DNA of 32,594 bases from a virus. The first letter of the stretch is position 1. Every line of letters begins with the position of its first letter. Positions 3 to 23,125 of this stretch are shown piece after piece. The stretch spans positions 1 to 32,594 of IMG/VR virus record IMGVR_UViG_3300023109_002606; one strand, given 5' to 3'. The notes under the pieces were generated by a model. That model had not been told where the DNA came from and searched no databases. It saw nothing but the letters and a program-made list of their open reading frames with translations. The translations under genes were made by a program, and so were the position numbers.

Positions 3-194
3 AAATCAGCATCATCCGTAGAACGCATTGAAGCATTTATTGCCTTAGGTAGACCAGATCCTTCTCAATATGCAGATGAAACAGGTCCTGTTAGTTATGA
101 AACAGCTAGGATTTATGTAGAACAAGTCCTTTCCGAACATGCTAAAGAACAATTTAATAAAGTAAGAACATCAAATACATTAAATATAAAGTAA
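3..194 (+). CDS. 3' end of an unidentified phage protein (partial)
   Basis: An open frame enters from the left edge and stops with TAA at 192-194, one base before the next ATG. The visible 63 residues are soluble and mixed-charge, with a likely helical C-terminal part (ETARIYVEQVLSEHAKEQF) and no recognisable motif. The frame has the same AT-rich codon use as the genes downstream and the tight spacing typical of this phage, so it is very likely a real gene. Its start and function lie outside the window. Confidence 0.7.
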   Translation, partial: KSASSVERIEAFIALGRPDPSQYADETGPVSYETARIYVEQVLSEHAKEQFNKVRTSNTLNIK

Positions 195-195
195 T

Positions 196-480
196 ATGAG
201 CGACGGAAAAACAGAAGCAATGAGAGGTACTTATTTTTTAAAAAATGAGATACAACATTCTAAAGAATATTATGATGTAAATCGAAATAGAGGTAGACGA
301 GATAAAAATCTTATAGCAGAAATTAATCACATGCCTAACCAAAAATGGCATAAAATCATTTCCTTTATTAAATCAGGTATTCGCATATTAGGTTATGCAA
401 TTATCCCTTTTAATTTGGTTATTGCAACTGGGGTGCTTATATTGAGTGAAATAATAGGAATAGTAGAAGAATTAGTATAA
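196..480 (+). CDS. small membrane protein of unknown function
   Basis: This 94-residue protein has a charged N-terminal half rich in K, R, E and N, and a C-terminal half made of one long or two close hydrophobic stretches (about residues 60-92, IRILGYAIIPFNLVIATGVL onward). That suggests an inner-membrane anchor with a cytoplasmic N-terminal tail. It starts one base after the upstream stop and ends 14 bases before the thioredoxin gene, so it is probably co-transcribed with both. I recognise no family. The hydrophobic tail could be holin-like, but nothing specific supports that. Confidence 0.7.
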   Translation: MSDGKTEAMRGTYFLKNEIQHSKEYYDVNRNRGRRDKNLIAEINHMPNQKWHKIISFIKSGIRILGYAIIPFNLVIATGVLILSEIIGIVEELV

Positions 481-494
481 TAAAAACAAATAAT

Positions 495-743
495 ATGAAA
501 CAATTGTGGTATTTTAGTGCTCCTTGGTGTGGGCCGTGTAAAATGTTTGGTCCAACAATGGACAGAGTAGCATCTCAAGGTATTCAAGTTAATAAAATTA
601 ACATTGATTATGAAGCAGATGCAGTAACTAAATATGGTGTTAGAAGTGTTCCTACTACTATTTTAGTAGAAAATGGAAAAGAATTAAGACGTTTTGTTGG
701 AGCTAAATCAGAAAACCAAGTAATAGAATTTTATAATGGGTAA
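495..743 (+). CDS. thioredoxin-like protein
   Basis: This is a compact 82-residue thioredoxin fold, shorter than the roughly 105-residue bacterial TrxA. The redox motif WCGPCK sits at residues 11-16 (Cys12, Cys15) after a short beta strand, and the cis-proline loop is SVPTT with Pro53. A Gly-containing C-terminal strand (VGA, 68-70) follows. Thioredoxins reduce protein disulfides; in T4-type phages small thioredoxin or glutaredoxin proteins commonly supply electrons to ribonucleotide reductase. No reductase gene is visible here, so that partner is inferred. The gene overlaps queD by 8 nt. Confidence 0.93.
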   Translation: MKQLWYFSAPWCGPCKMFGPTMDRVASQGIQVNKINIDYEADAVTKYGVRSVPTTILVENGKELRRFVGAKSENQVIEFYNG

Positions 744-1200
744 ATTTCAATCAAGTAAAGTATTTGATGGATTTAGTACAGTATTCCGTCAATGGAAAGC
801 AGAAGATACACATTGTAGATTTATACATGGATACGGTATTTCATTTAAAGTATATTTTGAAGGTGAATTAGACCATAGAAATTGGGTATGGGATTTTGGA
901 GGTATGAAACGTGCCAAAACCTTAATTGATGGTATGCAACCTAAAGCTTGGATGGATTATATGTTTGATCACACAATGATTATTGCTGAAGATGATCCTT
1001 GGGTAGATGCTTTCCAACAAATGGAACAATCAGGAGTAGCTCAAGTAAGAATAATTCCTGCTACTGGAGCAGAAAAATTTGCAGAATATATTTTTAACAA
1101 ATTAAATACATTTGTATTTGAAGAAACAGATGGTAGAGTTAGAGTAACAAAAGTTAAATTTATGGAGCATGGCAAAAACGCAGCTAGTTATGGAGAATAA
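736..1200 (+). CDS. queD: 6-carboxy-5,6,7,8-tetrahydropterin synthase (QueD family)
   Basis: QueD converts 7,8-dihydroneopterin triphosphate to 6-carboxytetrahydropterin, the second step towards preQ0. This 154-residue protein shows the family layout: His26-Cys27, the IHGYGISF segment (30-37), the DFGGMK strand-helix junction (53-58), FDHT with Asp78 and His79, and an ATGAEKFAEYIF segment (109-120) with the conserved Glu. The usual HGH zinc motif reads HGY here, so one classical ligand position is tyrosine. A similar HGY variant occurs in some proteobacterial homologues as far as I recall. It overlaps trx by 8 nt and queE by 11 nt, and FolE at 5176 would make its substrate precursor. Confidence 0.9.
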   Translation: MGKFQSSKVFDGFSTVFRQWKAEDTHCRFIHGYGISFKVYFEGELDHRNWVWDFGGMKRAKTLIDGMQPKAWMDYMFDHTMIIAEDDPWVDAFQQMEQSGVAQVRIIPATGAEKFAEYIFNKLNTFVFEETDGRVRVTKVKFMEHGKNAASYGE

Positions 1201-1996
1201 AAAATTATGGTATAAAAACGCTCCTTTAAAGCGTATTGAAGATTATAATAAAGTACTCCCAGTACTAGAAGTCTATCGTTGTGTACAAAGTGAAGGTAGT
1301 AGATTTGGACGTCCTACAATTGCTGTTCGTACTACTGGTTGTACTCACCGTTGTTATTTTGGTGAGGGAGGATGGTGTGACTCTTGGTATACTTCAATCC
1401 ATCCTGAAAAAGGTGAATTTACTTTTAATGATATTATTAAAATTTACGACGAGAATCCTCACGTTAAAGAAATGATGTTAACAGGAGGATCCCCAACAAT
1501 GCATCCCGCATTAGTAAACGAACTAACACACTTTGCTCATGAAAGAGGAATCCTTATTACGATCGAAACTGAAGGAAGTCATTTCCTCGAAACCGATTAT
1601 CCGATTGGTCTCCTTTCTATCTCACCTAAGTTTAGTAATAGTGTCCCTGTTATTGGTGCTACCACTCCCAATGGATCAGTTACAGATGAGAAGATGGTTA
1701 AAACGCACAATCGTCTTCGCCTTAATACTGAAGCCATTAGAACGAGTATTAATTATCATACTGACTATCATTATAAGCCTGTGTGGGATGGGACTGATGA
1801 AGGCCTCGCTGAAATTGAAGCTTATAGACAAGAGCTCAATATTCCTAAAGACAAAACCTTTGTCATGCCTGCAGGAGATACAAGAGAAACATTAATTGAA
1901 ATGTATCCTAAAGTATTTGAAATGTGTGCAGAACATGGTTATAATATGACTGGTAGAGATCATATTATTGCTTATGATACTAAACGCCAAGTATAA
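1190..1996 (+). CDS. queE: 7-carboxy-7-deazaguanine synthase (QueE, radical SAM)
   Basis: QueE is a radical-SAM enzyme that rearranges 6-carboxytetrahydropterin into 7-carboxy-7-deazaguanine. Visible family features are VQSEGSRFGRP (32-42), FVR-like IAVRTTGC, the GGSP motif (99-102, equivalent to GGEP) and a SISPK segment typical of QueE. The cluster cysteines are Cys51, Cys55 and Cys63, giving CX3CX7C instead of the usual CX3CX2C. I chose ATG 1190 (268 residues) because it is preceded by AGTT, as many starts here are, and overlaps the queD stop closely; an in-frame ATG at 1169 would add seven residues. No queC follows, so preQ0 formation would need another gene. Confidence 0.9.
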   Translation: MENKKLWYKNAPLKRIEDYNKVLPVLEVYRCVQSEGSRFGRPTIAVRTTGCTHRCYFGEGGWCDSWYTSIHPEKGEFTFNDIIKIYDENPHVKEMMLTGGSPTMHPALVNELTHFAHERGILITIETEGSHFLETDYPIGLLSISPKFSNSVPVIGATTPNGSVTDEKMVKTHNRLRLNTEAIRTSINYHTDYHYKPVWDGTDEGLAEIEAYRQELNIPKDKTFVMPAGDTRETLIEMYPKVFEMCAEHGYNMTGRDHIIAYDTKRQV

Positions 1997-2124
1997 TGGA
2001 TAGAGCACTTGAATTACTAGAACAAATAGAAGAAAATGTTTCAGTGTGTTGTGCCATTACTATGGAGCCAGACGAAGTTCTGGCTCTTATTGAAGAATTA
2101 AGAGAAATATTAGAAAACAAATAA
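1996..2124 (+). CDS. small acidic helical protein, unknown
   Basis: This 42-residue frame begins in the last base of the queE stop (TAATG) and ends with another TAATG that starts the nuclease gene, so it is translationally coupled on both sides. The product is strongly acidic and predicted helical (LELLEQIEENV, then LALIEELREILENK), with an adjacent Cys pair in the middle. The exact TAATG fit at both ends is the main evidence that it is a real gene. No function is recognisable. Confidence 0.65.
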   Translation: MDRALELLEQIEENVSVCCAITMEPDEVLALIEELREILENK

Positions 2125-2498
2125 TGTATACATACCACGCCACATTAGATAGAGTAGTAGATGGAGATACAGTAGACGCCTTAGTAGATTTAGGATTCGA
2201 TACTTGGAAAAAAGTTAGAATTAGAATGATGGGGATGGATGCTTGGGAATCTAGAACTCGAAATAAAGAAGAAAAGAAAAAAGGATTAGCAGCTAAAGCT
2301 CGCTTAATTGAAATTCTGAATGAAAATGAAAATAAATTTATTTTAGTATCTCATGGAGTAGGAAAATATGGTCGTTGTTTAGGTGAAATTTATGTTGAAA
2401 ACACCTATAATGACAACCCAAATCTACCAGAAATAAGTGTAAATAAAATTTTAATTAACGAAGGCCACGCTAAAGAATATTACGGAGGAAAACGATGA
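2124..2498 (+). CDS. staphylococcal-nuclease-like (thermonuclease) protein
   Basis: This 124-residue protein matches the SNase fold (OB-type barrel) and is complete for a minimal member. Visible motifs are RVVDGDTVDA (10-19, metal-binding Asp), VRIRMMGMDAWESR with the catalytic Arg, Asp and Glu arrangement, KYGRCLGEIYV with the second catalytic Arg, and a closing VNKILINEGHAKEYYGG segment. These enzymes hydrolyse DNA or RNA with calcium. There is no signal peptide, so it acts inside the cell, perhaps in host DNA breakdown for nucleotide reuse. It overlaps the carbamoyltransferase by 4 nt (ATGA). Confidence 0.9.
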   Translation: MYTYHATLDRVVDGDTVDALVDLGFDTWKKVRIRMMGMDAWESRTRNKEEKKKGLAAKARLIEILNENENKFILVSHGVGKYGRCLGEIYVENTYNDNPNLPEISVNKILINEGHAKEYYGGKR

Positions 2499-4255
2499 CA
2501 AAAGACGGAAAACAAATTAGCTTAGGCTTTTCAGTAGGACATGATAAGGGAGCAGTTATTGTAATTGATGATAAAGTTCAAGTAGGAATTATGGAAGAAA
2601 GATTATCACGTGTAAAACGCGATATGCCTTTCAACACAGATATTCCATTATTATCTATTAATTATTGTTTAGAAACATTGAATATAACGTATGATGACGT
2701 GGATATTTACTGCTACAATACAGCAGAAATGGAAGACTTAGTAGAAGAGCAATTTACACAGTATCTAGCTCAACCCGTAAATAAATTACTATTTGTTCCC
2801 CACCACGTAGCTCATGCTTATTCGACTTTCTTTGCTTCTGGATATGATGAGGCGGCTGTAATTGTAGCGGATGCTATGGGTAATGTTCATGATATTAATA
2901 GTAAAGCTCATGAATATTTTAAAGAAAAATATGGTGATTTACCTAAACTACCTAATGGATTAAGATGGGGAGAAGCTATTACCTTATTTAAATTTACTAA
3001 GAAAGACTATGAAGAGGTTCTTAAAAAATGGATTAAATATCCTGAACCTTATACCTTTGATAAAGAAGAATTATCTGTAGGGTGCATGTATGCTCAGGGT
3101 ACTATGCAGTTGACTTATGATGAAAAAACTTCTAACTGGCAAGCGGGTAAATTAATGGGATTAGCCTCATATGCTGATGAAGATTGGTTAAAAAAACAAG
3201 ATTATATTGCTAACATTATAGAAGATGAAGAAGGAAATATAGTTGATTTTTATATTCCAGGAACTCAGGTATATCCTGAAATTACATATAAGGCTGACTT
3301 TAGACGTAAATCTAATGTAGCCGGGGTTTACCAACGTGAACAGGTTCGATTAACTACAATGTTAGCTAAATATGTAAAACAACTTACAGGATTAAATAAA
3401 ATATGTTGTTCTGGGGGTTCATTCCTTAATTGCAACGCTAATGAAGCTATAATCAAATCAGAGTTATTTGAAAAATGTTATTTTACACCCCCTGCAGATG
3501 ATAGTGGTATTCCTTTAGGTGCTGCCTTTTATGGTAAGCATTTCCTTAATAACTGGGGACCTATTGAAGATAATCCTTTTATGAGTCCTTATTTTGGTAA
3601 AACATATACTAGAAATGACATTATAAAAGATATCCAAACTTATATTAAAGACGAGGATAGTGAATTTTTTGAATTCAATAATATAATTCATTTCAATACT
3701 CGAGAAGAAAGAGATGAATATATAACTGATCTACTCTTGGAAGATAAACCTATTGGTCTCCTCCAGGGAGGTTCAGAAATAGGACCCAGAGCTTTAGGTA
3801 ACAGAAGTATAATAGCTAATCCTTCTACTATTTGGATGAAAGATTATATTAATCATGAAATTAAAAATCGTGAATGGTATAGACCATTTGCCCCTTCAGT
3901 ATTATTTGAGGAACAAGGGAAAGTCTTTGATTTAGATGTATTTTCTCCTTATATGTTAGTAACGGCTTATTGTAATGAAGAATGGAAATCGAAAATTCCT
4001 TCTGTAGTCCATATTGATGGTACTTCAAGATATCAATCTGTTACTAAGGATATGAATGAATCTTATTATAATTTAATTAATAATTTTTACAAAGCAAGTA
4101 AGATTCCCTTAGTATTAAATACATCATTTAATGGTCCTGGAGAACCAATTGTAGAAACACCTTTAGATGCTATTAAAAGTTATGTAAAAAATGGTTTACC
4201 TGTTTTAGTATTGGAAGATATAGTTATTGAAAAAAAAGATTATAGAATTTATTAA
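2495..4255 (+). CDS. carbamoyltransferase, NodU/TobZ/CmcH family
   Basis: These two-domain enzymes use carbamoyl phosphate and ATP to make carbamoyl-adenylate and transfer the carbamoyl group to a hydroxyl. The 586-residue protein has the N-terminal Kae1-like domain: GFSVGHDKGAVIV (11-23), EERLSRVKRD (34-43), PHHVAHA with His103, His104 and His107, and IVADAMGN. The C-terminal YrdC-like half carries GGSEIGPRALGNRSI, WYRPFAPSVL and LNTSFNGPGEPIVETP. Length and motif order are normal for the family. Neighbours on both sides are nucleotide or deazaguanine genes, which points to carbamoylation of a modified base. Carbamoylation of a sugar made by the downstream glycan cassette is the main alternative. 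Confidence 0.93.
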   Translation: MTKDGKQISLGFSVGHDKGAVIVIDDKVQVGIMEERLSRVKRDMPFNTDIPLLSINYCLETLNITYDDVDIYCYNTAEMEDLVEEQFTQYLAQPVNKLLFVPHHVAHAYSTFFASGYDEAAVIVADAMGNVHDINSKAHEYFKEKYGDLPKLPNGLRWGEAITLFKFTKKDYEEVLKKWIKYPEPYTFDKEELSVGCMYAQGTMQLTYDEKTSNWQAGKLMGLASYADEDWLKKQDYIANIIEDEEGNIVDFYIPGTQVYPEITYKADFRRKSNVAGVYQREQVRLTTMLAKYVKQLTGLNKICCSGGSFLNCNANEAIIKSELFEKCYFTPPADDSGIPLGAAFYGKHFLNNWGPIEDNPFMSPYFGKTYTRNDIIKDIQTYIKDEDSEFFEFNNIIHFNTREERDEYITDLLLEDKPIGLLQGGSEIGPRALGNRSIIANPSTIWMKDYINHEIKNREWYRPFAPSVLFEEQGKVFDLDVFSPYMLVTAYCNEEWKSKIPSVVHIDGTSRYQSVTKDMNESYYNLINNFYKASKIPLVLNTSFNGPGEPIVETPLDAIKSYVKNGLPVLVLEDIVIEKKDYRIY

Positions 4256-4638
4256 TGCAGCTGATATCAACCCACCCAATTAAGAAATCTGATTTAGGCT
4301 TCCACGCTAACCTCTTTGGAGGAAAGTTATTAGCTTGGTTAGATGCATCAGCAGCAGCTTATGCTATGGAGGTATGTGATACTCCAAGAATGGTCACAGT
4401 GAAGATTGACGAATGTATTTTTAAGAAAGCTGCTAAGGAAGGTCAGATGATTAAAATATACGGTAGTGTAGATACAATCGGAACTACTTCAATCACACTT
4501 TACATGGAAGCTAGATCACACAATGTGTATTCTGGAAAGCAAAGTATTATATTATCAACAAATATTACATTTGTAAGAATAGATGAGAATAATGAACCTA
4601 TCCCAATTTCAGAAAGAGTAAAAAATAAAATAAAATGA
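4255..4638 (+). CDS. hotdog-fold acyl-CoA thioesterase-like protein
   Basis: This 127-residue protein fits the YciA/ACOT branch of hotdog thioesterases. The N-terminal segment HANLFGGKLLAWLDASAAAYA (17-37) carries the Asn and Asp (Asn19, Asp30) used for catalysis in this family, followed by VTVKIDECIFKKAAKEGQ and a TTSITLYMEARSHN strand. Family members hydrolyse acyl-CoA thioesters. It starts in the stop codon of the carbamoyltransferase gene (TAATG) and overlaps the phosphoribosyltransferase gene by 4 nt, so it is embedded in the nucleotide operon. A role for an acyl-CoA enzyme in a phage is not obvious; a different thioester or a binding role is possible. Confidence 0.85.
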   Translation: MQLISTHPIKKSDLGFHANLFGGKLLAWLDASAAAYAMEVCDTPRMVTVKIDECIFKKAAKEGQMIKIYGSVDTIGTTSITLYMEARSHNVYSGKQSIILSTNITFVRIDENNEPIPISERVKNKIK

Positions 4639-5138
4639 GAGAATTAATTTCAGCTAAGGATATTGATATCCAAACTAAAATAATTGGTAAACAAATCGCA
4701 GATGACCATAGAGGAGATAAAACCCCAGTCATAATGGTGGGTTTACTTAATGGTTGTTTCGCGTTTTACAGCGATTTAGTACGTGCTACGCCAATTGACA
4801 TGGAATGTGATTTTATGCGCGTTAAATCGTATACAAAACGCAAACAAGGCGATATACAAATTACTAAAGACCTAGAAACACCTGTAAAAGGTAAGCATGT
4901 TTATATTGTAGATGATATATATGATACTGGAAATACTATGGCCGCTGTTATAGAATATCTAGAAGTTAAACACCCAGCTTCAATTTCAATAGTATCTCTA
5001 ATAACCAGAGAAACATCTCCAATTCCAGAACAAAAATCATATCATGCTTTTACAATTAAAGATGAGTGGTTGATAGGAATGGGGATGGACGATAGTAAAG
5101 GGTTTAATAGAAATTTAAAGTCAATTTGGGCTCTATAA
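4635..5138 (+). CDS. purine phosphoribosyltransferase (hypoxanthine/guanine type)
   Basis: The 167-residue length and layout fit the HPRT group of type I phosphoribosyltransferases, which join a purine base to PRPP. The diagnostic PRPP-binding loop is YIVDDIYDTGNTM (90-102). An early VGLLNGCFAF segment (35-44) matches the pyrophosphate-binding loop, and VKSYTKRKQGDI fits the flexible catalytic loop. The C-terminal KDEWLIGMGMDD segment matches the family's base-binding region. In a phage this would be purine salvage; next to QueD, QueE and FolE, use of a deazaguanine-like base is a speculative alternative. The folE promoter begins inside its 3' end. Confidence 0.9.
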   Translation: MRELISAKDIDIQTKIIGKQIADDHRGDKTPVIMVGLLNGCFAFYSDLVRATPIDMECDFMRVKSYTKRKQGDIQITKDLETPVKGKHVYIVDDIYDTGNTMAAVIEYLEVKHPASISIVSLITRETSPIPEQKSYHAFTIKDEWLIGMGMDDSKGFNRNLKSIWAL

Positions 5139-5156
5139 ATAGAATTCGTATATTCA
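5125..5156 (+). promoter_or_regulatory. Bacteroidota-type promoter for folE
   Basis: TTTG at 5125-5128, 20 nt, then TATATTCA at 5149-5156, preceded by TTCG. The -33 box lies inside the last codons of the phosphoribosyltransferase gene. The expected transcript starts about 12-14 nt before ATG 5176, and its leader carries AAATAAAAAGTTATA. This matches the TTTG-N19-21-TAnnTTTG pattern known for Bacteroidota sigma-A promoters. Confidence 0.8.
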
Positions 5157-5175
5157 AACAAATAAAAAGTTATAA

Positions 5176-5871
5176 ATGGAAAATAAACGTAGAAAAATCC
5201 ACGAACAATTAGAAGTGGTACAAGAAGGTTTTGCAAATGGTGTAGCACCTGGTTTCCCCCTTAATAGTGATGAAAAAGTAGCAATGATTGATGCTGCTGA
5301 AGAAGCATATGGTAAATTTTTAGATGCTTTAAAATGTGATTGGAGAAACGATCCAAATTCAATGGAAACACCTCGTCGTGTAGCAAAAGCATACGTAAAC
5401 GATTTATGGGCTGGTAGATATACAGCAATGTCTCCAATTACATCATTCCCTTCAGATGGTTATGATGGTATTATTATTGAAAGAAATATCCCATTAACAT
5501 CAATGTGTTCTCACCACCACCAAACAATTGGGGGTGTAGTTCATATTGGTTATATTGCTGGAGATGAAGGTCAAGTAATTGGTTTATCTAAATTAAACAG
5601 AATTGTAGAATTATTTGGACGTAGAGGCGCTATTCAAGAACAATTAACATCAGCTATTCATAACGCAGTAGATAAAATTACTGAAGGTAATAAGGGTGTT
5701 ATTGTAACTATAGTTGGAACACATAATTGTGTATCTTGTAGAGGTGTTAAGCATCAAGGAGCAGCCATGGTTACTACTAAAGCTTCTGGTGTATTTAGAG
5801 AAAATAATAATTTATCAAGAAAAGAATTTTTCGATAGTTTAAAAATTAATAATGGAGGACATAACATCTAA
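5176..5871 (+). CDS. folE: GTP cyclohydrolase I
   Basis: FolE converts GTP to 7,8-dihydroneopterin triphosphate, the entry step to folate and to 7-deazaguanines. The 231-residue protein has the normal catalytic core. Zinc ligands are expected at Cys111 and His114 (MCSHHHQTIGG; the family has CEHH) and at Cys185 (THNCVSCRGV). VIGLSKLNRIVELFGRRGAIQEQLT matches the strictly conserved helix. The N-terminal 40 residues are variable. It has its own promoter although it serves the same pathway as queD and queE about 4 kb upstream, so it may be expressed at a different level or time. The start follows the AAAAAGTTATA leader. Confidence 0.95.
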   Translation: MENKRRKIHEQLEVVQEGFANGVAPGFPLNSDEKVAMIDAAEEAYGKFLDALKCDWRNDPNSMETPRRVAKAYVNDLWAGRYTAMSPITSFPSDGYDGIIIERNIPLTSMCSHHHQTIGGVVHIGYIAGDEGQVIGLSKLNRIVELFGRRGAIQEQLTSAIHNAVDKITEGNKGVIVTIVGTHNCVSCRGVKHQGAAMVTTKASGVFRENNNLSRKEFFDSLKINNGGHNI

Positions 5872-5894
5872 TATTTATCAATAAACTTAATATT

Positions 5895-6194
5895 ATGCTT
5901 TATTTAAAATTAAACGAATCAAATCAAATTGTTATATGTGACCAAGCATCTGGTCAAATAGAAACTATGGACTGTGAATACACAGTAGCGTCAGTTGTTG
6001 AATCTGAAATAAAAATATGGGGAACTTCAGACGATCGTGGTCTTATTGATAGTACAAAATTCAATTTCCCATCTGTAAGTCTTCCTAATTCTGAGGATAT
6101 AGAAGAAAATCAATTAGCTTCTCTTGTTAATGATGCTGTTAGTTTTCTAGAAGGACAAGGTTGTAAAGTTTATAAAAACGATCAACAATTATAA
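5895..6194 (+). CDS. small acidic protein of unknown function
   Basis: This 99-residue protein has alternating short strands (LYLKLNESNQIVICDQ, CEYTVASVV) and an acidic C-terminal helix (EDIEENQLASLVNDAVSFLE). There is no signal peptide or membrane segment, and I recognise no family. It lies 23 bases after folE, in a gap containing a small TAATATT/AATATTA inverted repeat, and is followed by a strong hairpin terminator. It therefore seems to be the last gene of the folE transcript. Confidence 0.75.
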   Translation: MLYLKLNESNQIVICDQASGQIETMDCEYTVASVVESEIKIWGTSDDRGLIDSTKFNFPSVSLPNSEDIEENQLASLVNDAVSFLEGQGCKVYKNDQQL

Positions 6195-6216
6195 TTAAAA
6201 ATATTAATTATTTTAA

Positions 6217-6245
6217 AAAGGAGGTTGGTTTATCCAATCTCCTTT
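6217..6245 (+). terminator. 12-bp hairpin, probable terminator fused to a promoter
   Basis: The left arm 6217-6228 (AAAGGAGGTTGG) pairs with 6234-6245 (CCAATCTCCTTT) in a continuous 12-bp stem with one G-U pair and a 5-nt loop (TTTAT). CTTATATT follows. It sits after the stop at 6194 and ends the folE unit. The same bases also carry the -33 box of the next promoter. Confidence 0.8.
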
Positions 6246-6255
6246 CTTATATTCC
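6224..6255 (+). promoter_or_regulatory. Bacteroidota-type promoter for the MazG-like/polymerase unit
   Basis: GTTG at 6224-6227, 20 nt, then TATATTCC at 6248-6255. The -33 element is inside the left arm of the preceding hairpin. The leader AAAATAAAATAAAAAAGTTATG leads straight into the start at 6278. Unlike most others here, the four bases before the -7 box are TTCT and not TTCG. Confidence 0.65.
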
Positions 6256-6277
6256 GGTAAAATAAAATAAAAAAGTT

Positions 6278-6892
6278 ATGACACAATTTGAAGAAGAAAT
6301 AGAAGTAATTCTATTAAATAGTTTAGGTACTCTAAATTCATTTAGGGATAGAGATCAACTTAGTATGGTCCCCGAAAGTGAATGGGCTCAATTTACTGCT
6401 AAAAAAATAGCAGAACAATTTAAGGGTAATTATGTCCCCTTTGTAAGTGAAGTAGAAACATTTAACGCCACAATGGGTAAACCTAATAACTATGAGCCAA
6501 TTATACCAGAGAAAAAAGAATGGATGTTTGTTTATGATTTCATCCTTGAAGAACTTGAAGAGTACAAACACGCTTGTGAAACAGGAGACATTGTTGAGAT
6601 TCTTGATGCTTTATGTGACATTGCCTACGTCTCGATTGGTAACGGAGCTATGTTACATGGTCTTAAGGATAAGTTATGGGACGCCTATCAAGAAGTACAA
6701 GCGTCGAATATGTCGAAGGCTTGTATTAGTGAAGAGGAAGCACAACAAACAGTGGAAAGACGTTCCCAGGAACAAAATGAACCGTGTCACTATGAAAAGG
6801 TTGGAGAATATTATATTGTCTATAGAACACGTGACAAAAAAGTTATGAAAAACATCAATTATTTTAGACCGGACCTTAAAAAATTCTTTTAA
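6278..6892 (+). CDS. MazG-like nucleoside triphosphate pyrophosphohydrolase
   Basis: This 204-residue protein has the all-alpha NTP-PPase (MazG/PRA-PH/dUTPase-like) core in the middle. A VETFNATMGKP lead-in (59-69) is followed by ILEELEEYKHACETGDIVEILDALCDIAYVSIGNGAML. Glu91, Glu92 and Glu95 plus Glu107, Asp110 and Asp114 form the metal-binding EExxE...ExxD pattern. These enzymes hydrolyse NTPs or dNTPs to monophosphates. In a phage with modified nucleotides it could remove unwanted dNTPs or lower alarmone-related signals. It directly precedes DNA polymerase (ATG in the TAATG of its stop), which supports a role in the dNTP pool. The C-terminal 60 residues are unassigned. Confidence 0.85.
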   Translation: MTQFEEEIEVILLNSLGTLNSFRDRDQLSMVPESEWAQFTAKKIAEQFKGNYVPFVSEVETFNATMGKPNNYEPIIPEKKEWMFVYDFILEELEEYKHACETGDIVEILDALCDIAYVSIGNGAMLHGLKDKLWDAYQEVQASNMSKACISEEEAQQTVERRSQEQNEPCHYEKVGEYYIVYRTRDKKVMKNINYFRPDLKKFF

Positions 6893-9573
6893 TGTATCAA
6901 TCAATTTTCTATGATAGAAGCGACTATGTCTATTATCTTAGGGATGACAAACATGGTTGGAAGAAAAATTTCAAATATGATCCTACTAGATATCAATTAG
7001 ACCCTGATGGAGATTTAAAAACAATATTCGGCCAATCAGTTTCTGTGGCTCCAAGAGCAAAATTTAGAGATCCTAACTTCTTTGAAAATGACGTAGACAG
7101 AGATACCCGTTTACTAGTCGATTTATATTACGAATCAGATGATACTCCTTCATTTCATAATATAGTTTATTTTGATATTGAGTGTGAAATTGTTGGTGCA
7201 TTAACCCCTGAAAATATTAAAAACCCTAAAGGTAAAATAACCTCAGTTGCTGTGTATGATAATAATAGTAAAAAGTACTATTGTTTGATATTGGATGAAA
7301 GTAAGAGATTAAATAAAATTAGTGGAGAAACTGAAATTATTAGATATGATAATGAAAAAGACTTACTAAATGGTTTTCTAGATCTATGGATAAAATTAGA
7401 CCCAACCATAATATCAGGATGGAATAGTCAATACTTTGATGTTCCTTACCTTTATTATAGAATGGAAAAAATTATAGGTAAAACCCAAGCAAGCTATTTT
7501 TCACCTCTTAATAAAATAAATCCATTACAAAGAAAAGATAGGAAAACAGGTAATATTATTAATACAGTTCAATTAGGAGGTATTAATCATTTAGATTATA
7601 TGCTCCTATTCCAGAAATTTATTACTAAACAAGAACCTTCTTATAGATTAGATGATATTGGATCCAAATATGCTAAGTTATCTAAAATTGAATATGAAGG
7701 AAACTTAGATCATTTATTTGAAACTGATGTAGAAAAATTTATTGAATATAACATACGAGATGTTGAAATATTAGTTGAATTAGAACGTTCTCTTAAATTT
7801 ATTGAGCTTACAGTTAATATTTGTCACTTATGTCATACACCTTATGAGACTATATATTATTCAACTGTATTAAATGATGGAGCTATTTTAACTTACCTAA
7901 AGCGTAAAGGTATTGTATCTCCTAATAAACCTACAACTTATAACCCTAATTTAAATATTGGGAATGTAATTAAAGGAATACAAACCAATCCATCTTTGCG
8001 TCAAAGTGAAATTGATGAAAAAATAGCAGAAGTTAAACGAACTCAAGAATATGCTGGGGGTTATCTTAAAGAGCCAGTTCCTGGATTGTATGAGTGGGTT
8101 ATTGATCTTGATTTTACTTCTCTATATCCTTCAATTATTCGTTCCCTTAATATTGGTGTTGAAACTTTAGTAGGACGTATTGTAAATAAAAATAAATATG
8201 ATAACCAATGGTCATTAAAGGAACTAAGAGCAATGGATCCTATGACTAAAGTAGAAATTGAAAGGTTAAATAAAGATTATACTATTGCTGTTACTGAAAA
8301 TGTACCTGTAGGTTTAATTATTAAACAAATAGAACAAGATGACCTTTTAATATCAGCTCCTGGGGTTATATTCCGTAAAGATAAATCAAGTGTAGTTTGT
8401 GAGATATTAGCTGATTGGTTTGCCAAACGTGTTGAATATAAAAATAAAATGAAAAAAGCATACAAAGCAGGTGATGCTGTGCAAGGTGAATTTTATAATA
8501 AACGTCAACACGCGTATAAAATTAAACTAAATGATGTTTATGGTGTATTCGCCCAAAATGGATGGAGATACACAGATGGACATAAAATGATAAGTAAGGC
8601 TATTACATTAACTGGTCAACGATTAACCCAAGATTCTATTATTTTTGTAAATAACTGGATTAATGAACAAATGGGAACTGATAAAGATTATATTATTACA
8701 TCAGATACTGATTCATTATTTGCCCAAGTAAAAGATCTTATTGTTTATAGAAACCCAGAACTAGCTAATGCTGATAGGGAAACCATTGTAGAGGAAACAT
8801 TAAAAGTTGCTGAAGAAATTCAAGAATTAGCTAATAAGCATCTTCATGAAATGGCTCAAGAATTATTCAATATCAAATATCCAGATGAACCTCATTATTT
8901 TGAGTTAAAACAAGAAGTTGTACTTGAAAGGGGATATTTCTCAGGCAAACGTAGATATGCTCAATTTATTGTAAATAAAGAAGGAATTCCAACTGAAGAG
9001 TTAGATATGAAAGGTTTAGATCTAATGAAGTCTAACTTCCCTCCATTATTTAAAAAGTTTGGAGAACATATCCTTACTGAAATTATGTTTGGTAAAGAAA
9101 AAGCTGATATTGATAGACAAGTTCTTGATTTTAGAGAATCACTTAGAACAGTAGGTTGGAAAGAAATACTAAAACCCACAGGACTAAAGAAAATGAGGGA
9201 GTATATTGCTTCCCCTCCCAAATCAGGTGAAATATTTTCTCGTTTAGGATTAAAATGTCCTATTAATACCAAATCAGCAATTTTTTATAATGATATCCTT
9301 AAATTTAAAGGATTAGATAAAAAGTTCCCTATATTTCAAGTTGGAGATAAAATGTATATTGCGTATCTTAAAGAGAATCCATATAGAATAGATACTATTG
9401 GATTTAATGGATATAATGATCCCCCTGAAATTATGGATTTTATTGAAAAATATATTGATAGAGATGGAATATTTGACTCAGTAATTAAGAATAAATTAGA
9501 AAACGTATACCACGACATTAATTGGGGAATGCCAGTATTTAATAGAAAGATAAATAATATTTTTAAGTTTTAA
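6892..9573 (+). CDS. 43: DNA polymerase, family B (T4 gp43-like)
   Basis: This is the replicative polymerase, with 893 residues against 898 in T4. The exonuclease domain has Exo I FDIEC (Asp95, Glu97), Exo II GWNSQYFDVPYL (Asp183) and Exo III YNIRDVEIL (Asp290). The polymerase domain has motif A DFTSLYPSIIRSLN (Asp407), motif B around KRQHAYKIKLNDVYGVFAQ (538-555) and motif C TSDTDSLF with Asp605 and Asp607. All catalytic residues seen in active members are present. No intein or break interrupts it. It starts in the stop codon of the MazG-like gene and is followed after 1 nt by the probable clamp gene, giving a compact replication unit. Confidence 0.97.
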   Translation: MYQSIFYDRSDYVYYLRDDKHGWKKNFKYDPTRYQLDPDGDLKTIFGQSVSVAPRAKFRDPNFFENDVDRDTRLLVDLYYESDDTPSFHNIVYFDIECEIVGALTPENIKNPKGKITSVAVYDNNSKKYYCLILDESKRLNKISGETEIIRYDNEKDLLNGFLDLWIKLDPTIISGWNSQYFDVPYLYYRMEKIIGKTQASYFSPLNKINPLQRKDRKTGNIINTVQLGGINHLDYMLLFQKFITKQEPSYRLDDIGSKYAKLSKIEYEGNLDHLFETDVEKFIEYNIRDVEILVELERSLKFIELTVNICHLCHTPYETIYYSTVLNDGAILTYLKRKGIVSPNKPTTYNPNLNIGNVIKGIQTNPSLRQSEIDEKIAEVKRTQEYAGGYLKEPVPGLYEWVIDLDFTSLYPSIIRSLNIGVETLVGRIVNKNKYDNQWSLKELRAMDPMTKVEIERLNKDYTIAVTENVPVGLIIKQIEQDDLLISAPGVIFRKDKSSVVCEILADWFAKRVEYKNKMKKAYKAGDAVQGEFYNKRQHAYKIKLNDVYGVFAQNGWRYTDGHKMISKAITLTGQRLTQDSIIFVNNWINEQMGTDKDYIITSDTDSLFAQVKDLIVYRNPELANADRETIVEETLKVAEEIQELANKHLHEMAQELFNIKYPDEPHYFELKQEVVLERGYFSGKRRYAQFIVNKEGIPTEELDMKGLDLMKSNFPPLFKKFGEHILTEIMFGKEKADIDRQVLDFRESLRTVGWKEILKPTGLKKMREYIASPPKSGEIFSRLGLKCPINTKSAIFYNDILKFKGLDKKFPIFQVGDKMYIAYLKENPYRIDTIGFNGYNDPPEIMDFIEKYIDRDGIFDSVIKNKLENVYHDINWGMPVFNRKINNIFKF

Positions 9574-9574
9574 T

Positions 9575-10318
9575 ATGATAGATAAATTAGATTTAGTATC
9601 AATAATTTCAAAGTATCACTTAAATGGTACTGTTGAGCAAGTACGATGGGATATAAAAAATAATACTTTAGGTATTGGTTTTAATTCCCCCTCAAAAGAT
9701 TTATTAGGAAGAATAGATTATAAAGAATTTCCTGTTGAGGATTCAGTTATAGCTATTGGTAATACTAGTCAATTAGTAAAATTAATAGGAATTACAAATG
9801 GTTATTTAAATTTAGAATATAATAAAAAACATAAGTTAATTACCCAATTAATTATTGCTGATAATCAATATACTCTTAATTATGCTTTAGCTGATACTAA
9901 TCATATCCCTGCATCTGGAGAATTAGCAGGAGAATTTGAATATACAGCAACAGCAGAAATAGATAATGAGAGTATTTCAGCTATTGTTAAAGCAAAACAA
10001 GCACTAACTGATGCTAATACAGTTGTAATCAAATACAGCCCAAATGAAGATAATGAAGATAGAATAGAATTATGTTTTGGGGGAAATATTCAATATTCTA
10101 ATAAAGTATCATTTTACTTACAAGATGTTAATTTAGAAGACACAAATATAGATGAACATTATGATTCAAGTAGAATTAAAGAAATAATGTATTGCAATAA
10201 AGATATGACATCAGGAAAATTAAGTTTATGTTTACAAGAAAATAAAGAACATATAAAACTTGAATTTGAAAATGATAAATTAAAAAGCACTTATTATCTT
10301 GTTTCAAAAGAAAAATAA
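9575..10318 (+). CDS. probable DNA polymerase sliding clamp (T4 gp45-like)
   Basis: This 247-residue protein lies directly after the polymerase. Its pattern of many short strands is what a two-domain phage clamp gives: an opening helix (IDKLDLVSIISKYH), VIAIGNTSQLVKLIG in the place of the T4 gp45 segment around its first domain helix, then YTLNYALADTNHIPASG resembling the gp45 linker region. A second half (AIVKAKQALTDANTVVIKY, then NKVSFYLQDVN) repeats the design. T4 gp45 has 228 residues. Similarity is by layout and a few conserved positions only, so this is inference backed by gene order and by gp44- and gp62-like loader genes downstream. Confidence 0.65.
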   Translation: MIDKLDLVSIISKYHLNGTVEQVRWDIKNNTLGIGFNSPSKDLLGRIDYKEFPVEDSVIAIGNTSQLVKLIGITNGYLNLEYNKKHKLITQLIIADNQYTLNYALADTNHIPASGELAGEFEYTATAEIDNESISAIVKAKQALTDANTVVIKYSPNEDNEDRIELCFGGNIQYSNKVSFYLQDVNLEDTNIDEHYDSSRIKEIMYCNKDMTSGKLSLCLQENKEHIKLEFENDKLKSTYYLVSKEK

Positions 10319-10329
10319 TTATATATTTA
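10298..10329 (+). promoter_or_regulatory. probable promoter for hsp20
   Basis: CTTG at 10298-10301, 20 nt, then TATATTTA at 10322-10329. The -33 box lies inside the end of the clamp gene. The bases before the -7 box are ATTA, without the TTCG found at most others. It would give a leader of about 65 nt, the longest in the window, holding the inverted-repeat arm and the UUCG hairpin. Confidence 0.6.
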
Positions 10330-10367
10330 TAATAAACGACCTTAGGGCACAATTTATAGTTTAACCC

Positions 10368-10384
10368 GCTGATCTTCGGACAGC
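10368..10384 (+). promoter_or_regulatory. UUCG-capped hairpin in the hsp20 leader
   Basis: GCTG (10368-10371), a bulged A, then TC pairs with GA and CAGC (10379-10384) around a TTCG loop, giving the very stable C(UUCG)G tetraloop. It ends 18 nt before ATG 10403 in an otherwise AT-rich leader. A heat-shock gene with a structured leader suggests translational or stability control, such as an RNA thermometer, but no start-site sequestration is visible. Confidence 0.65.
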
Positions 10385-10402
10385 ATAAATTTAAAAAATG
10401 AT

Positions 10403-10819
10403 ATGAGTACATTAAACATTAATGAACGTAATCCGTTCGACATTCTATTTAGAAACTTCTTTAATGCAGAAGACCAATTCGCACCAGCATTAAATTCAAA
10501 ACAACCCCATCCCTTAGACATTTATTATGATGATGAAGGACTTCATTTTGAAGTAGCCTGTACAGGACTTACTAAAGATGACCTTGACATTAGTGTAGAA
10601 GGAGATTTATTAAAAATTAGTTATAAAAAACCTAAAAGTGAAATCGACTTCTCAGGTTATATCTATCATGGTTTATCTAGAAAATCATTTGATTTAGGAT
10701 ATAAAATATCTCCAAAATTTAATCTAAATAAGATTGGAGCTGAAATGGAAAATGGTTTATTAAAACTTCATATTCCAATTTCAGAAGAGTCAAAACCAAA
10801 AACAGTAAAAATTAAGTAA
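10403..10819 (+). CDS. small heat-shock protein (Hsp20/alpha-crystallin family)
   Basis: sHSPs are ATP-independent holdases that bind unfolding proteins. The 138-residue protein has a short N-terminal arm (RNPFDILFRNFFNAE), then an alpha-crystallin domain from about residue 33 (HPLDIYYDDEGLHFEVACTG, LTKDDLDISVEGDLLKISY), SRKSFDLGYKISPKFNLNKI, and the family's AEMENGLLKLHIPI strand. A short PKTVKIK tail with an alternating V-I pattern may fit the oligomerisation groove. Hsp20 genes are known in T4-type cyanophages. Here it is grouped with groES and groEL and has its own promoter, a structured leader and flanking inverted repeats. Confidence 0.94.
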   Translation: MSTLNINERNPFDILFRNFFNAEDQFAPALNSKQPHPLDIYYDDEGLHFEVACTGLTKDDLDISVEGDLLKISYKKPKSEIDFSGYIYHGLSRKSFDLGYKISPKFNLNKIGAEMENGLLKLHIPISEESKPKTVKIK

Positions 10820-10836
10820 CCTATTGTGCCCTTAAG

Positions 10837-10868
10837 GTTGTTTTATTAATATACTGTTCGTATATTCA
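10837..10868 (+). promoter_or_regulatory. Bacteroidota-type promoter for the groES-groEL unit
   Basis: GTTG at 10837-10840, 20 nt, then TATATTCA at 10861-10868 with TTCG just before. The -33 box touches the right arm of the inverted repeat. Transcription would begin about 18 nt before ATG 10894, with leader AAATAAATAAAAAAGTTAT, and would serve the 105-residue protein, groES and groEL. Confidence 0.78.
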
Positions 10869-10893
10869 CGTTATAAATAAATAAAAAAGTTAT

Positions 10894-11207
10894 ATGGCAA
10901 ACACAATTATTAAAGATCCAGTATTACTCCCGTATTACATTTCTAAAGATCAGTATTGTTATACTGTAATCGAAATCATTACTCCGGATGAAAAAAATCT
11001 TGGAAGATTTGGCAATAAAGGAAATGAAAATGAAGGTAAAGATTATGAAAAACCTTTAGGTCATTATTCTACTCTAGCTAATGCATTAAAGAAAATAGCA
11101 AAAGTAAAATTAGATACAAAACCTGAATATAATAGTATTTTAGAATATATTAAAACTTGGGAATCAGAAAAAACAGAAATGGAAAAATTATTAAATAAAA
11201 TCGGAAT

Positions 11208-11211
<4 letters not shown>
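10894..11211 (+). CDS. unknown small protein at head of the groES-groEL unit
   Basis: This 105-residue, lysine-rich soluble protein contains YCYTVIEIITPDEKNLGRFG, a Gly/Asn/Glu-rich loop (NKGNENEGKDYEKPLG) and a helical C-terminal half (STLANALKKIAKVKL, SILEYIKTWESEKTEMEKLL). The Y-x-V...PLGYY-like...AL-K-I order resembles small phage proteins I have seen without assigned function; that recollection is weak. It is the first gene after a strong promoter and overlaps groES by 4 nt, so it is made together with the chaperonins. Confidence 0.8.
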
Positions 11212-13117
<1,906 letters not shown>

Positions 13118-13130
13118 AAAATATTAGGTT

Positions 13131-13391
13131 ATGAGTAAAACAGAAGTTATAGAAAAACTCCATGAGATAGCTCAACGTGTCCCCCCTGGGGACCGTTGGG
13201 AAGTCGATGGTGTAAAAGAAATTCAAAAATCACTTACTAATGCTTTGGAATCATGGTTTCAGATAGCTAAGGTAAAACCATCAGCATTTCGTTTAGATTT
13301 GGCTAAGGGTAAACTTTTTGCTATATTACCTGATGAAGTAGAGATAGTAGAACCAGAACCAATTAAATATTCAATTTACGGAGATGAGTAA
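13131..13391 (+). CDS. unknown 86-residue protein
   Basis: This is a soluble protein with an N-terminal helix (EVIEKLHEIAQRV), a GDRWEVDGVKEIQKSLTNALESWF segment and a terminal acidic, proline-rich tail (EVEIVEPEPIKY). It starts 13 nt after groEL behind a GGTTATG context and overlaps the clamp-loader ATPase gene by 8 nt, which suggests shared expression with the replication proteins. I recognise no family or catalytic motif. Confidence 0.78.
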   Translation: MSKTEVIEKLHEIAQRVPPGDRWEVDGVKEIQKSLTNALESWFQIAKVKPSAFRLDLAKGKLFAILPDEVEIVEPEPIKYSIYGDE

Positions 13392-14298
13392 AAAAATAAA
13401 TACACTTTGGGTTGAAAAATATCGTAGTGCTGATTTAAATAGTTATGTAGGAAATGAGACAATTAAAACAACAGTCGATAAATACATTAAACAAAATGAC
13501 ATTCAGAACTTTTTATTCTATGGCCCTGCAGGTACTGGGAAGACTACTCTTGCTAAGCTTATCGTTAATAATTTGGACTGTGAATATCTTTATATTAATG
13601 CCAGTGATGAACGTGGAATTGATACTATTAGAGATAAGGTCTCAAGTTTCGCAGGTTCAGCATCGTTTGCTCCCCTTAAAGTAATTATTTTAGATGAGGC
13701 TGATTTCTTAACAATCCAAGGTCAGGCCGCTCTTAGAAATGTAATAGAAACTTATTCACGTACTACTCGTTTTATATTAACTTGTAATTTTGTAGAACGT
13801 ATTATTGATCCTTTACAATCTAGATGTCAAGTACTTAAAATTGTTCCCCCATCAAAACAAGATATTGCTTATCATCTTGTTAATATTTTCAAGCAGGAAA
13901 AAGTTGATTGTGCTGCTGATGATTTAAAAATAGTGGTAAATCAATTCTATCCTGATTTACGTAAAATGCTTAATACTCTCCAATTATCCATCCAAGATGA
14001 TGAAGTAGTATTAGATAAATCTATACTTGTATCATCTAATTATATGGCTCAAGTACTTAAAGAATTAAAAAATGCTAAACCGAATTGGAGAGAAATTAGA
14101 CAAATTATCGCTAATGCAAATGTCAGTGATTTTGAGGAACTTTATCGTTATTTGTATGATAATGCTTCTATATACGCAAATGGAATGGAAGGAATGGTTG
14201 CTATTTACATCAACGAGTATAGTTATCAGTCTAATTTCCGTATTGATAAAGAAATTAACGCAATGGCACTCATCCAAAAATTAATAGAATTAAAATGA
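13384..14298 (+). CDS. 44: clamp loader ATPase (T4 gp44/RFC small-subunit-like)
   Basis: This AAA+ ATPase opens the sliding clamp and places it on primed DNA. The 304-residue protein begins with LWVEKYRSADLNSYVG, typical of RFC/gp44. The Walker A motif is GPAGTGKTT (47-55), Walker B IILDEAD (101-107), sensor 1 LTCNF (132-136), and the SRC arginine-finger motif holds Arg147. T4 gp44 has 319 residues. A helical collar follows to the C terminus. The probable gp62 partner is at 15103, separated by four small genes, whereas in T4 genes 44 and 62 are adjacent. Confidence 0.94.
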   Translation: MSKKINTLWVEKYRSADLNSYVGNETIKTTVDKYIKQNDIQNFLFYGPAGTGKTTLAKLIVNNLDCEYLYINASDERGIDTIRDKVSSFAGSASFAPLKVIILDEADFLTIQGQAALRNVIETYSRTTRFILTCNFVERIIDPLQSRCQVLKIVPPSKQDIAYHLVNIFKQEKVDCAADDLKIVVNQFYPDLRKMLNTLQLSIQDDEVVLDKSILVSSNYMAQVLKELKNAKPNWREIRQIIANANVSDFEELYRYLYDNASIYANGMEGMVAIYINEYSYQSNFRIDKEINAMALIQKLIELK

Positions 14299-15743: not shown

Positions 15744-16199
15744 ATGTCAGAAAAAACATATAAACATCCTGATTGGGAAGTAACAACAACAGGACAAGAA
15801 AACCCAGATTATATAACAGGAACTTATCCTGAGTCTAAAGCAAGTTATGATGAAATTATAGGTTCAACTGTAGGTGATTTTGAAAAAATATACCCTGAAC
15901 TAGCAAAAGAATTTAAACAAATCCAGAAAGAACAATATGATTTGTTTGCTGGAAAAATGTTAGATTATGGATTAGGAAATATTGCTTTAGGGTCTACACT
16001 CACAGAAGATGAAGATGTACAGTGGTCATTGACTGGTATTTGGTTGCGTTGTAACGACAAGATAAACCGCCTAAAAAACATGCTTAATCGTAAAGGTAAA
16101 AATTATGTTAATGATGAACCCATGATTGATAGCTTTATTGATATATCAAATTATGGAATTATTGCCCAATTAGTGATGAGGGGCAAATGGAAGAAATAA
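15744..16199 (+). CDS. Nmad1/DUF1599-like protein (nucleotide-modification-associated)
   Basis: The central segment YDLFAGKMLDYGLGNIALGS (65-84), followed by GIWLRCNDKINRLKNM (98-113), NDEPMIDSFIDISNYGIIAQ (123-142) and a final GKWKK, matches the Nmad1/DUF1599 family, helical proteins frequent in phages that modify their DNA. Biochemical function is not firmly known; links to nucleotide modification come from gene-neighbourhood studies. The 151-residue length is normal. With QueD, QueE, FolE and the carbamoyltransferase in the same window it adds to the case for modified phage nucleotides. It is the last gene before the nuclease promoter. Confidence 0.82.
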   Translation: MSEKTYKHPDWEVTTTGQENPDYITGTYPESKASYDEIIGSTVGDFEKIYPELAKEFKQIQKEQYDLFAGKMLDYGLGNIALGSTLTEDEDVQWSLTGIWLRCNDKINRLKNMLNRKGKNYVNDEPMIDSFIDISNYGIIAQLVMRGKWKK

Positions 16200-17468: not shown

Positions 17469-18905
17469 ATGAATAAAAGTTTTAAATACATCCCTAAGGA
17501 TGAAAGGAAAAAAATCCTATTAATTTGTGATGATATTAGAGTCCATTCAGGAGTAGCAACAGTTGCTCGTGAAATTGTAATTCATACCGCATCTCATTTT
17601 AATTGGGTAAATATGGCAGGTAGTATTCAACATCCTGAAAAAGGTAAAAGATTTGATTTGAGTTCCGATACAAATAAAAATGCTGGTATCGATGATTCAT
17701 CTGTTATTCTTTACCCAACCGATGGATACGGAACACCAGATTTTCTTAGACAATTAATCAATCTAGAAAAACCTGACGCTATATTATTAATAACAGATCC
17801 AAGATATTTTGAATATATTTTCCAAATGGAAAATGAAATTAGAAAAGATATTCCTATTGCTTATTTAAATATTTGGGATGATTATCCTACACCGTTATAT
17901 AATAAAGCATTTTATGAAGCATGTGATTTGTTAATGGGTATTAGTAAGCAAACAGTAAACATTAATAAATTAGTATTAGGCGATAAAGCAAATGATAAAG
18001 TAATTAAGTATGTTCCTCACGGCTTAAATAATGAGATATTTTATCCTATGACTGAATTTCCTAAAGATTTTCTTGAATTTAAGAATGGGTTATTTGAGGG
18101 AAATGAATTTGAATTTGTAGTATTTTTTAATTCTAGAAATATTAGACGTAAAGCCATTCCTGATACATTATTAGCTTTTAGGTACTTTTTAGATAAACTT
18201 CCTAAAGAAAAAGCTGAAAAATGTGCTATTTTACTTCATACTGAAGAAGTAAGTGAACATGGAACTGATTTAATTGCTATTATAGAGTTATTATTTGAAG
18301 AATACCCAAATAATGTTTTCTTTACTAAAGGTAAATTTGCTCCTGAACATATGAATTATTTATATAATATGGCTGATGTGCAAATATTATTAAGTTCTAA
18401 TGAAGGGTGGGGATTATCTCTTACTGAAGCATTACTAACAGGTACTCCTATTATTGCTAACACAACTGGAGGAATGCAGGATCAAATGCGTTTTGAAGAT
18501 GAAAACGGTAATTGGATTGATTTTAATGCTGATTTCCCTTCAAACCATAATGGTACATATAAAACATCAGGTGAATGGGCATTTCCCGTATTCCCAACAA
18601 ATAGATCAATTCAAGGTTCACCTAGAACACCTTATATTTGGGATGATAGATGTAGTGCCGAAGATGCAGCTGAACAAATTATGAATGTTTATTCATTAGG
18701 AAAAGATAAACAAAAAGAATTAGGTAATAAAGGTAGAGAATGGGCTTTAAATTCAGAAGCAGGATTTACTTCACCACATCAAGCAGAACGTATTGTTGAT
18801 GCCTTTAATTCCTTATTTGATACTTGGAAACCAAGACATAGATTTGAATTTATAGACACTAAAGAAGTTAAAAATAAAGTTATACCACATAAATTGTTAT
18901 ATTAA
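17469..18905 (+). CDS. glycosyltransferase, GT4-like (GT-B fold)
   Basis: The 478-residue protein opens with a Rossmann-like strand KILLICDDIRVHSGVATVAR (15-34), where SGVATV fits the acceptor-side glycine loop. The C-terminal donor domain has FFTKGKFAPEHMNYLYNMAD and SSNEGWGLSLTEALLTGTPI with the EX7E pair Glu312 and Glu320, then ANTTGG. This is the GT4 signature for nucleotide-sugar donors. It starts the glycan cassette and is followed after 0 nt by a second GT4 (TAATG). No membrane segment is visible, so it works in the cytosol on a soluble acceptor, DNA or a membrane-surface lipid. Acceptor and sugar cannot be read from sequence. Confidence 0.9.
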   Translation: MNKSFKYIPKDERKKILLICDDIRVHSGVATVAREIVIHTASHFNWVNMAGSIQHPEKGKRFDLSSDTNKNAGIDDSSVILYPTDGYGTPDFLRQLINLEKPDAILLITDPRYFEYIFQMENEIRKDIPIAYLNIWDDYPTPLYNKAFYEACDLLMGISKQTVNINKLVLGDKANDKVIKYVPHGLNNEIFYPMTEFPKDFLEFKNGLFEGNEFEFVVFFNSRNIRRKAIPDTLLAFRYFLDKLPKEKAEKCAILLHTEEVSEHGTDLIAIIELLFEEYPNNVFFTKGKFAPEHMNYLYNMADVQILLSSNEGWGLSLTEALLTGTPIIANTTGGMQDQMRFEDENGNWIDFNADFPSNHNGTYKTSGEWAFPVFPTNRSIQGSPRTPYIWDDRCSAEDAAEQIMNVYSLGKDKQKELGNKGREWALNSEAGFTSPHQAERIVDAFNSLFDTWKPRHRFEFIDTKEVKNKVIPHKLLY

Positions 18906-20188: not shown

Positions 20189-20191
20189 AAA

Positions 20192-23122: not shown

Positions 23123-23125
23123 ATT

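Follow-up and report, generated by a model that had tools for sequence, protein, structure and literature searches.

The IMG/VR virus record IMGVR_UViG_3300023109_002606, which we analyzed over its complete length of 32,594 bases (hereafter, the window), carries genes for 7-deazaguanine synthesis together with genes of other functions in a single run on the plus strand (positions 736-5871). This gene run belongs to a DpdA-type 7-deazaguanine DNA modification cluster of a phage resembling the isolate Flavobacterium phage vB_FspM_immuto (hereafter, immuto; Immutovirus, MW353176), i.e., it represents a known route in a new relative that carries exchangeable cargo. More specifically, we consider it likely that the window holds part of a cluster of the described FolE-QueD-QueE-QueC-DpdA type in which a hypoxanthine/guanine phosphoribosyltransferase (HPRT) serves in salvage and a carbamoyltransferase (CT) with its fellow accessory genes is glycan-directed cargo. 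FolE, QueD, QueE, and QueC would convert guanosine triphosphate (GTP) to 7-cyano-7-deazaguanine (preQ0), DpdA would swap guanine in the phage DNA for preQ0, and the presence of preQ0 in DNA would protect against restriction. The known preQ0/DpdA route is hence found in a widespread and mostly uncultured group of Bacteroidota-phage relatives.

The 7-deazaguanine gene cluster and the window edge

The window is a fragment without end repeats that has a G+C content of 30%, and the contigs used for comparison are fragments as well. The gene run encodes, in this order, QueD (6-carboxytetrahydropterin synthase, 736-1200; PF01242, 5.7e-14; PHROG 2389 (QueD), 1.7e-40), QueE (7-carboxy-7-deazaguanine synthase, 1169-1996; PHROG 2076 (QueE), 2.2e-49), an endonuclease of the staphylococcal nuclease type (SNase, 2124-2498; PF00565, 8.9e-10; PHROG 452 endonuclease, 2.4e-33), a NodU/TobZ-type CT, a hotdog thioesterase, HPRT, and FolE (GTP cyclohydrolase I, 5176-5871; PF01227, 2.8e-42), which catalyzes the first step of the pathway. 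Profile matches locate all enzymes named in the first-pass annotation of the sequence where it had placed them, though its list of the intervening genes was incomplete and lacked the SNase-type endonuclease between QueE and CT. Viral relatives were gathered with a QueE query that matched hundreds of loci and gave at least 80 related ones, and the identical gene set was found again in identical order in dozens of viral contigs, so that the cluster is not a chance assembly. Gene co-occurrence was scored in 40 other QueE loci that have around 5 kb or more of sequence on each side and share ancestry.

The first-pass annotation had missed queC and dpdA in this cluster and considered its gene combination not known to be described, but both impressions are due to where the edge of the window falls. 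The window begins with the C-terminal end of queC (7-cyano-7-deazaguanine synthase; 3-194 on the plus strand, cut by the edge; 65% identity to immuto QueC by tblastn), and its positions 1-165 align at 90% DNA identity to the end of queC in our closest useful relative, locus L004. The DNA of L004 is 94.1% identical to the window across positions 187-12855 and encodes, upstream of this shared region, a complete queC (6790-7695 of L004; PHROG QueC, 7.2e-40), a 262-residue DpdA homolog, and ThyX, an arrangement that recurs in L005 (a 112-kb contig) except that ThyA replaces ThyX. In the nearest relative, dpdA lies around 1-3 kb upstream of the position matching the window edge, and the gene adjoins queC in L004, L005, and about 40 related loci. 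Among the 40 loci of the co-occurrence set, DpdA and QueC are both present in 21 and both absent in 18.

Sequence libraries assign the L004-type DpdA only to a family of unknown function (phrog_19058). The top match of its AlphaFold model (based on an alignment of 25 relatives; pLDDT 93.9) among solved structures is 7ui4, "DNA preQ0 insertase DpdA" (Z 17.1 over 231 residues; 12-13% identity in the structural alignment), which ties with bacterial and archaeal tRNA-guanine transglycosylases (TGTs). Judging from this model, the L004-type protein is a DpdA with TGT fold, and the aspartates D53, D84, and D206, invariant in the alignment, are what a TGT-like active site would be expected to show.

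HPRT and the predicted base in phage DNA

The HPRT gene (4635-5138) matches TIGR01203 (1.7e-41; 141.8 bits compared to a cut-off of 150) as well as a solved hypoxanthine/guanine phosphoribosyltransferase (3acb, 2.5e-29), and its closest solved relatives are ordinary enzymes of this type. It has both the loop for phosphoribosyl pyrophosphate (PRPP; VDDIYDTGNT) and the C-terminal motif of the purine site (DEWLIGMGMD). In the co-occurrence set, DpdA is found together with HPRT or a short phosphoribosyltransferase at 21 of the 40 loci and alone at 1, with such a phosphoribosyltransferase alone at 8 and neither at 10 (Fisher p 0.0007, which is indicative only because the loci are related). DpdA works by base exchange with release of guanine, and it is for this reason that we propose a role in guanine salvage: HPRT may convert the freed guanine to guanosine monophosphate, which would refill the GTP pool that FolE draws on. 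A literature search for DpdA combined with phosphoribosyltransferase or with Cellulophaga returned nothing. The company of HPRT and DpdA suggests the testable idea that base-swapping phages also carry an enzyme that recycles the expelled guanine.

We considered and rejected the possibility, raised in the first-pass annotation, that HPRT itself is the loading enzyme and attaches preQ0 or 7-carboxy-7-deazaguanine to PRPP, so that the base would be incorporated as a deoxynucleoside triphosphate at replication and without DpdA. The location of HPRT within the cluster would be in line with such a route, as would reports of DpdA-independent insertion in Campylobacter phages and Halovirus HVTV-1 (PMC6884629) and the existence of related contigs of 112-173 kb with queD, queE, and folE without dpdA or queC, a class of which some members retain HPRT. 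However, the lineage of the window has a dedicated base-exchange enzyme in DpdA, HPRT is found with DpdA more often than without it, and both its PRPP loop and its purine site are those of an ordinary hypoxanthine/guanine enzyme, making base loading by HPRT highly unlikely. It seems similarly improbable, and was likewise rejected, that the Que genes only feed queuosine synthesis for host tRNA. FolE, QueD, QueE, and QueC are indeed common to queuosine synthesis, but dpdA, which encodes a homolog of DNA-guanine transglycosylase, adjoins queC in the relatives, and neither QueF nor a bacterial-type TGT was found in them. Because the relative with dpdA next to queC is nearly identical to the window, we agree with the first-pass annotation that the Que genes serve the modification of phage DNA and not tRNA alone.

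The simplest prediction for the end product of this pathway, made on incomplete contigs, is preQ0 in DNA. We favor preQ0 over archaeosine or preQ1 because no Gat-QueC or QueF was seen (ArcS was not searched for). QueC of this group has single-domain length (around 280-301 residues) with a family match that spans the QueC domain, and a search for QueF (PF14489) gave no match on contig G002, on G003 (a relative of 112 kb), or on the majority of the class members, whereas it was positive for immuto and the contigs of L026 and L052. Sister clusters at L026, L018, L052, L078, and L082 have QueF, a DpdA nearer to that of immuto (52-73%), and/or a formyltransferase, and base decoration thus seems to differ between close relatives. 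Separately, three large contigs encode queD and queE (L034 on G011, 173 kb; L059 on G014, 160 kb; and L041 on G012, 112 kb), the former two also folE, and no queC, queF, or DpdA of the L004 type was detected on them. These phages may bring 7-carboxy-7-deazaguanine or another derivative into DNA by a DpdA-independent route or may rely on the host.

The carbamoyltransferase cassette and its putative acceptor

The CT gene (2495-4255; PF16861, 1e-59; PF02543, 1.9e-22; PDB carbamoyltransferase 7xb6, 1.2e-55) is intact and has both the N- and the C-terminal carbamoyltransferase domain, and the HHxxH and RAL-GNRS motifs are conserved. Its ratio of nonsynonymous to synonymous substitution rates (dN/dS) of 0.09-0.13 indicates purifying selection. 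At locus L007 of a sister phage, the gene is absent exactly, and the sequences equivalent to positions 2105-2494 and 4252-5875 of the window are contiguous with no residue left over. By this sequence comparison, CT appears as a clean cassette of 1.76 kb that was recently exchanged. Among the related que loci, only L003, L004, and L005 share this CT (at 87-100% identity), and none of the 40 loci of the co-occurrence set has a CT within -5 to +6.5 kb of queE. CTs of other clades are found within 10 kb at four further que loci (L013, L014, L015, and L023); in total, a CT is present on 6 of 25 que contigs, though five of these six were selected for a CT within 10 kb and we claim no enrichment. Elsewhere, the slot between queE and HPRT or folE is occupied by a methyltransferase of class I, a DegT aminotransferase paired with a GNAT acetyltransferase, a 2-oxoglutarate (2OG)-Fe(II) oxygenase-like protein, a sulfotransferase, or a DNA/RNA nuclease. 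CT, the YciA-like hotdog acyl-CoA thioesterase (4255-4638; PF03061 (4HBT), 2e-12; NF007970, 2.1e-8), and the SNase-type endonuclease are accessory cargo in this variable queE-folE slot, which is a site of cargo gene exchange among such phages. A scan of a cellular genome collection with CT patterns found no relative, and we can therefore name no cellular source.

In a tree of 107 CTs, the CT of the window and 11 sisters from 11 loci (47-50% identity) form a clade with a support of 1.0. A QueE search of the 11 sister contigs gave no match, in a search without internal positive control but with a query that finds hundreds of loci elsewhere. At the nearest sister locus, L113, the CT gene overlaps its neighbors by 4 bases. 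On one side of it, a GT2 glycosyltransferase is encoded, and on the other a GT-like protein, after which come UDP-galactopyranose mutase and a large glycosyltransferase. In the surroundings of 26 more distant viral CTs, the genes found most commonly encode GT9 heptosyltransferases, 2OG oxygenases, HAD phosphatases, cytidylyltransferase-like proteins, PfkB proteins (HldE-like), GT2 glycosyltransferases, and sulfotransferases. In the window, a block on the plus strand at 17469-26064 encodes glycosyltransferases (17469, 18905, and 25294), an epimerase (21252), and a TylF methyltransferase (23875) and forms a candidate partner of CT; glycosyltransferases are also found in the equivalent region of immuto. 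Further along the same strand follow separate genes for an HldE-type sugar-phosphate nucleotidyltransferase domain (26596-27018, a short gene; TIGR02199 rfaE_dom_II, 1.4e-18, below the cut-off) and for a shortened HldE-type heptose-phosphate kinase domain (PfkB; 28964-29731; TIGR02198 rfaE_dom_I, 1.6e-33, below the cut-off; PF00294), which may form a sugar-nucleotide pathway with the epimerase. Because of the glycan run at L113, the neighbors of the distant CTs, and the glycosyltransferase, epimerase, and HldE-like genes of the window itself, our best guess for the acceptor is a glycan: most likely, CT O-carbamoylates a sugar of a host-surface or virion glycan together with the downstream glycosyltransferase and HldE-like genes.

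Glycan carbamoylation is likelier than what the first-pass annotation had considered conceivable, i.e., that CT carbamoylates 7-deazaguanine to create a new DNA base; the amine of preQ1 or an as yet unknown hydroxymethyl derivative would be examples of an acceptor. CT does sit in the gene run of queD, queE, and folE with overlaps of a few bases to its neighbors and a dN/dS around 0.1, and the combination of formyltransferase and QueF in the immuto cluster indicates that tailoring by transfer of small groups would fit this group of phages. Yet the contigs of the lineage show no QueF and thus no phage-made amine acceptor, and preQ0 lacks a hydroxyl group. Moreover, CT is an exchanged cassette, scarlessly absent from L007 and missing from the range of -5 to +6.5 kb at all 40 other well-covered QueE loci, and its closest relatives reside on contigs without queE, the nearest of them in a glycan run. 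A carbamoylated deazaguanine is therefore very improbable, and we see hardly more than a slim chance that CT acts on 7-deazaguanine already in DNA (e.g., preQ1 made via host QueF) to yield an undescribed carbamoylated base. A different DNA base, 5-hydroxymethylcytosine (5hmC), comes into question because a phage carbamoyltransferase from metagenomic MetaGPA data makes 5-carbamoyloxymethylcytosine from it (PMC8670742). CT could then perform a second, separate DNA modification, and the PRA-PH gene at 6278 of the window has its parallel in PRA-PH genes reported as neighbors of the 5hmC carbamoyltransferase (PMC8670742). In the CT tree, however, this enzyme forms a clade (support 0.91) with the CTs of L013, L014, and L015 and with those CTs that stand second in tandem pairs, outside of which the CT of the window falls, and the motifs of the latter (REWYRPFAP and RALGNRS) differ from those of the 5hmC enzyme clade (GRDTVMPFAP and RALCNTT), a comparison of visible motifs rather than of the specificity residues W408, G421, and R423 of TobZ. 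Furthermore, the 5hmC enzyme co-occurs with thymidylate synthase homologs whose residue 177 is Asp (PMC8670742), whereas all readable thymidylate synthases near our clusters, on incomplete contigs, have LPFNIA, i.e., Asn instead of Asp at the position that sets the preference for deoxyuridine or deoxycytidine monophosphate (dUMP or dCMP), and L004 has ThyX rather than a ThyA-type synthase. Given the different clade and motifs and the dUMP type of these synthases, we rejected the CT of the window as a 5hmC enzyme, a role that is quite unlikely.

Several points weigh against our favored combination of preQ0 insertion by DpdA, guanine salvage by HPRT, and glycan carbamoylation by CT. The dpdA gene lies outside the window, and its presence in the source phage is deduced from the relative. 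Our assignment of a role to HPRT is guesswork based on co-occurrence and chemistry. Within the clade of the window's CT, a clear glycan operon is seen at L113 only, and the other sister CTs adjoin an HNH endonuclease and often also a second CT. Finally, the unsequenced parts of the phages represented by these contigs could encode QueF, a dCMP hydroxymethylase, or a tailoring enzyme.

Beyond the CT of the window, the CTs at L013:18537-20162, L014:1179-2774, and L015:15877-17502 belong to the 5hmC enzyme clade and are encoded within around 9 kb of queE, in the case of L014 between queC and a thioredoxin gene. As candidates for a second DNA modification, they rank above the CT of the window. Tandem CTs of two clades (at around 6000 and 7700), the second from the 5hmC enzyme clade, are found at L108, L110, L111, L112, L114, L115, and L116, where an HNH endonuclease mostly precedes the CTs and the thymidylate synthases that could be read are of the dUMP type. 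In addition, L113:1-4745 shows a long run of wrong-frame open reading frames of which the other frame holds Pro-Gln-Gly (collagen-like) repeats, and directly downstream of it follow 2OG oxygenases and the glycan run with the nearest CT; it is possible that a collagen-like fiber is hydroxylated and glycosylated here.

Neighboring genes and comparison with known systems

The cluster is flanked by a gene for thioredoxin that often adjoins queD (495-743; PF00085, 4.6e-18) and, as a conserved neighbor, one for a nucleoside-triphosphate pyrophosphohydrolase of the PRA-PH/MazG type (6278-6892; PF01503, 1.6e-8) that occupies the same place in immuto; both are on the plus strand. Further downstream, the window encodes phage Hsp20, GroES, GroEL, and a small clamp-loader subunit resembling replication factor C (10403-14298) near a family B polymerase and a sliding clamp. 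For the Nmad1 protein proposed in the first-pass annotation at 15744-16199, a match does exist, but it is weak (PF07659, 26.2 bits compared to a cut-off of 25, covering 38 of 151 residues).

Immuto and the lineage of the window share the gene order QueD-QueE-phosphoribosyltransferase-FolE-PRA-PH, queC, and dpdA as well as GroES/GroEL, a PD-(D/E)XK nuclease, and downstream glycosyltransferases, with identities of 70% for QueE, 69% for QueD, and 61% for FolE. Immuto differs in having QueF, a formyltransferase, and a DNA polymerase of family A and in lacking a carbamoyltransferase in the slot, whereas the window lineage has a family B polymerase, the CT, hotdog, and SNase cargo, and a DpdA that is only 37% identical and encoded upstream of queC. 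The FolE-QueD-QueE-QueC-DpdA pathways of E. coli phages 9g and CAjan and Mycobacterium phage Rosebush (PMC6884629) consist of the same enzymes and share the predicted route that leads from GTP to 7-deazaguanine in DNA, though the DpdA of the window lineage is far from theirs in sequence. The 5hmC carbamoyltransferase of MetaGPA is, like the CT of the window, a phage-encoded member of the same superfamily with carbamoyl phosphate and ATP as expected substrates, but the two differ in clade and active-region motifs, and no dCMP hydroxymethylase is in reach of the window's CT. The O-carbamoyltransferases TobZ, NodU, and GdmN, in turn, show full-length homology to this CT at around 30% identity and share its RALG-RS and RPFAP motifs.

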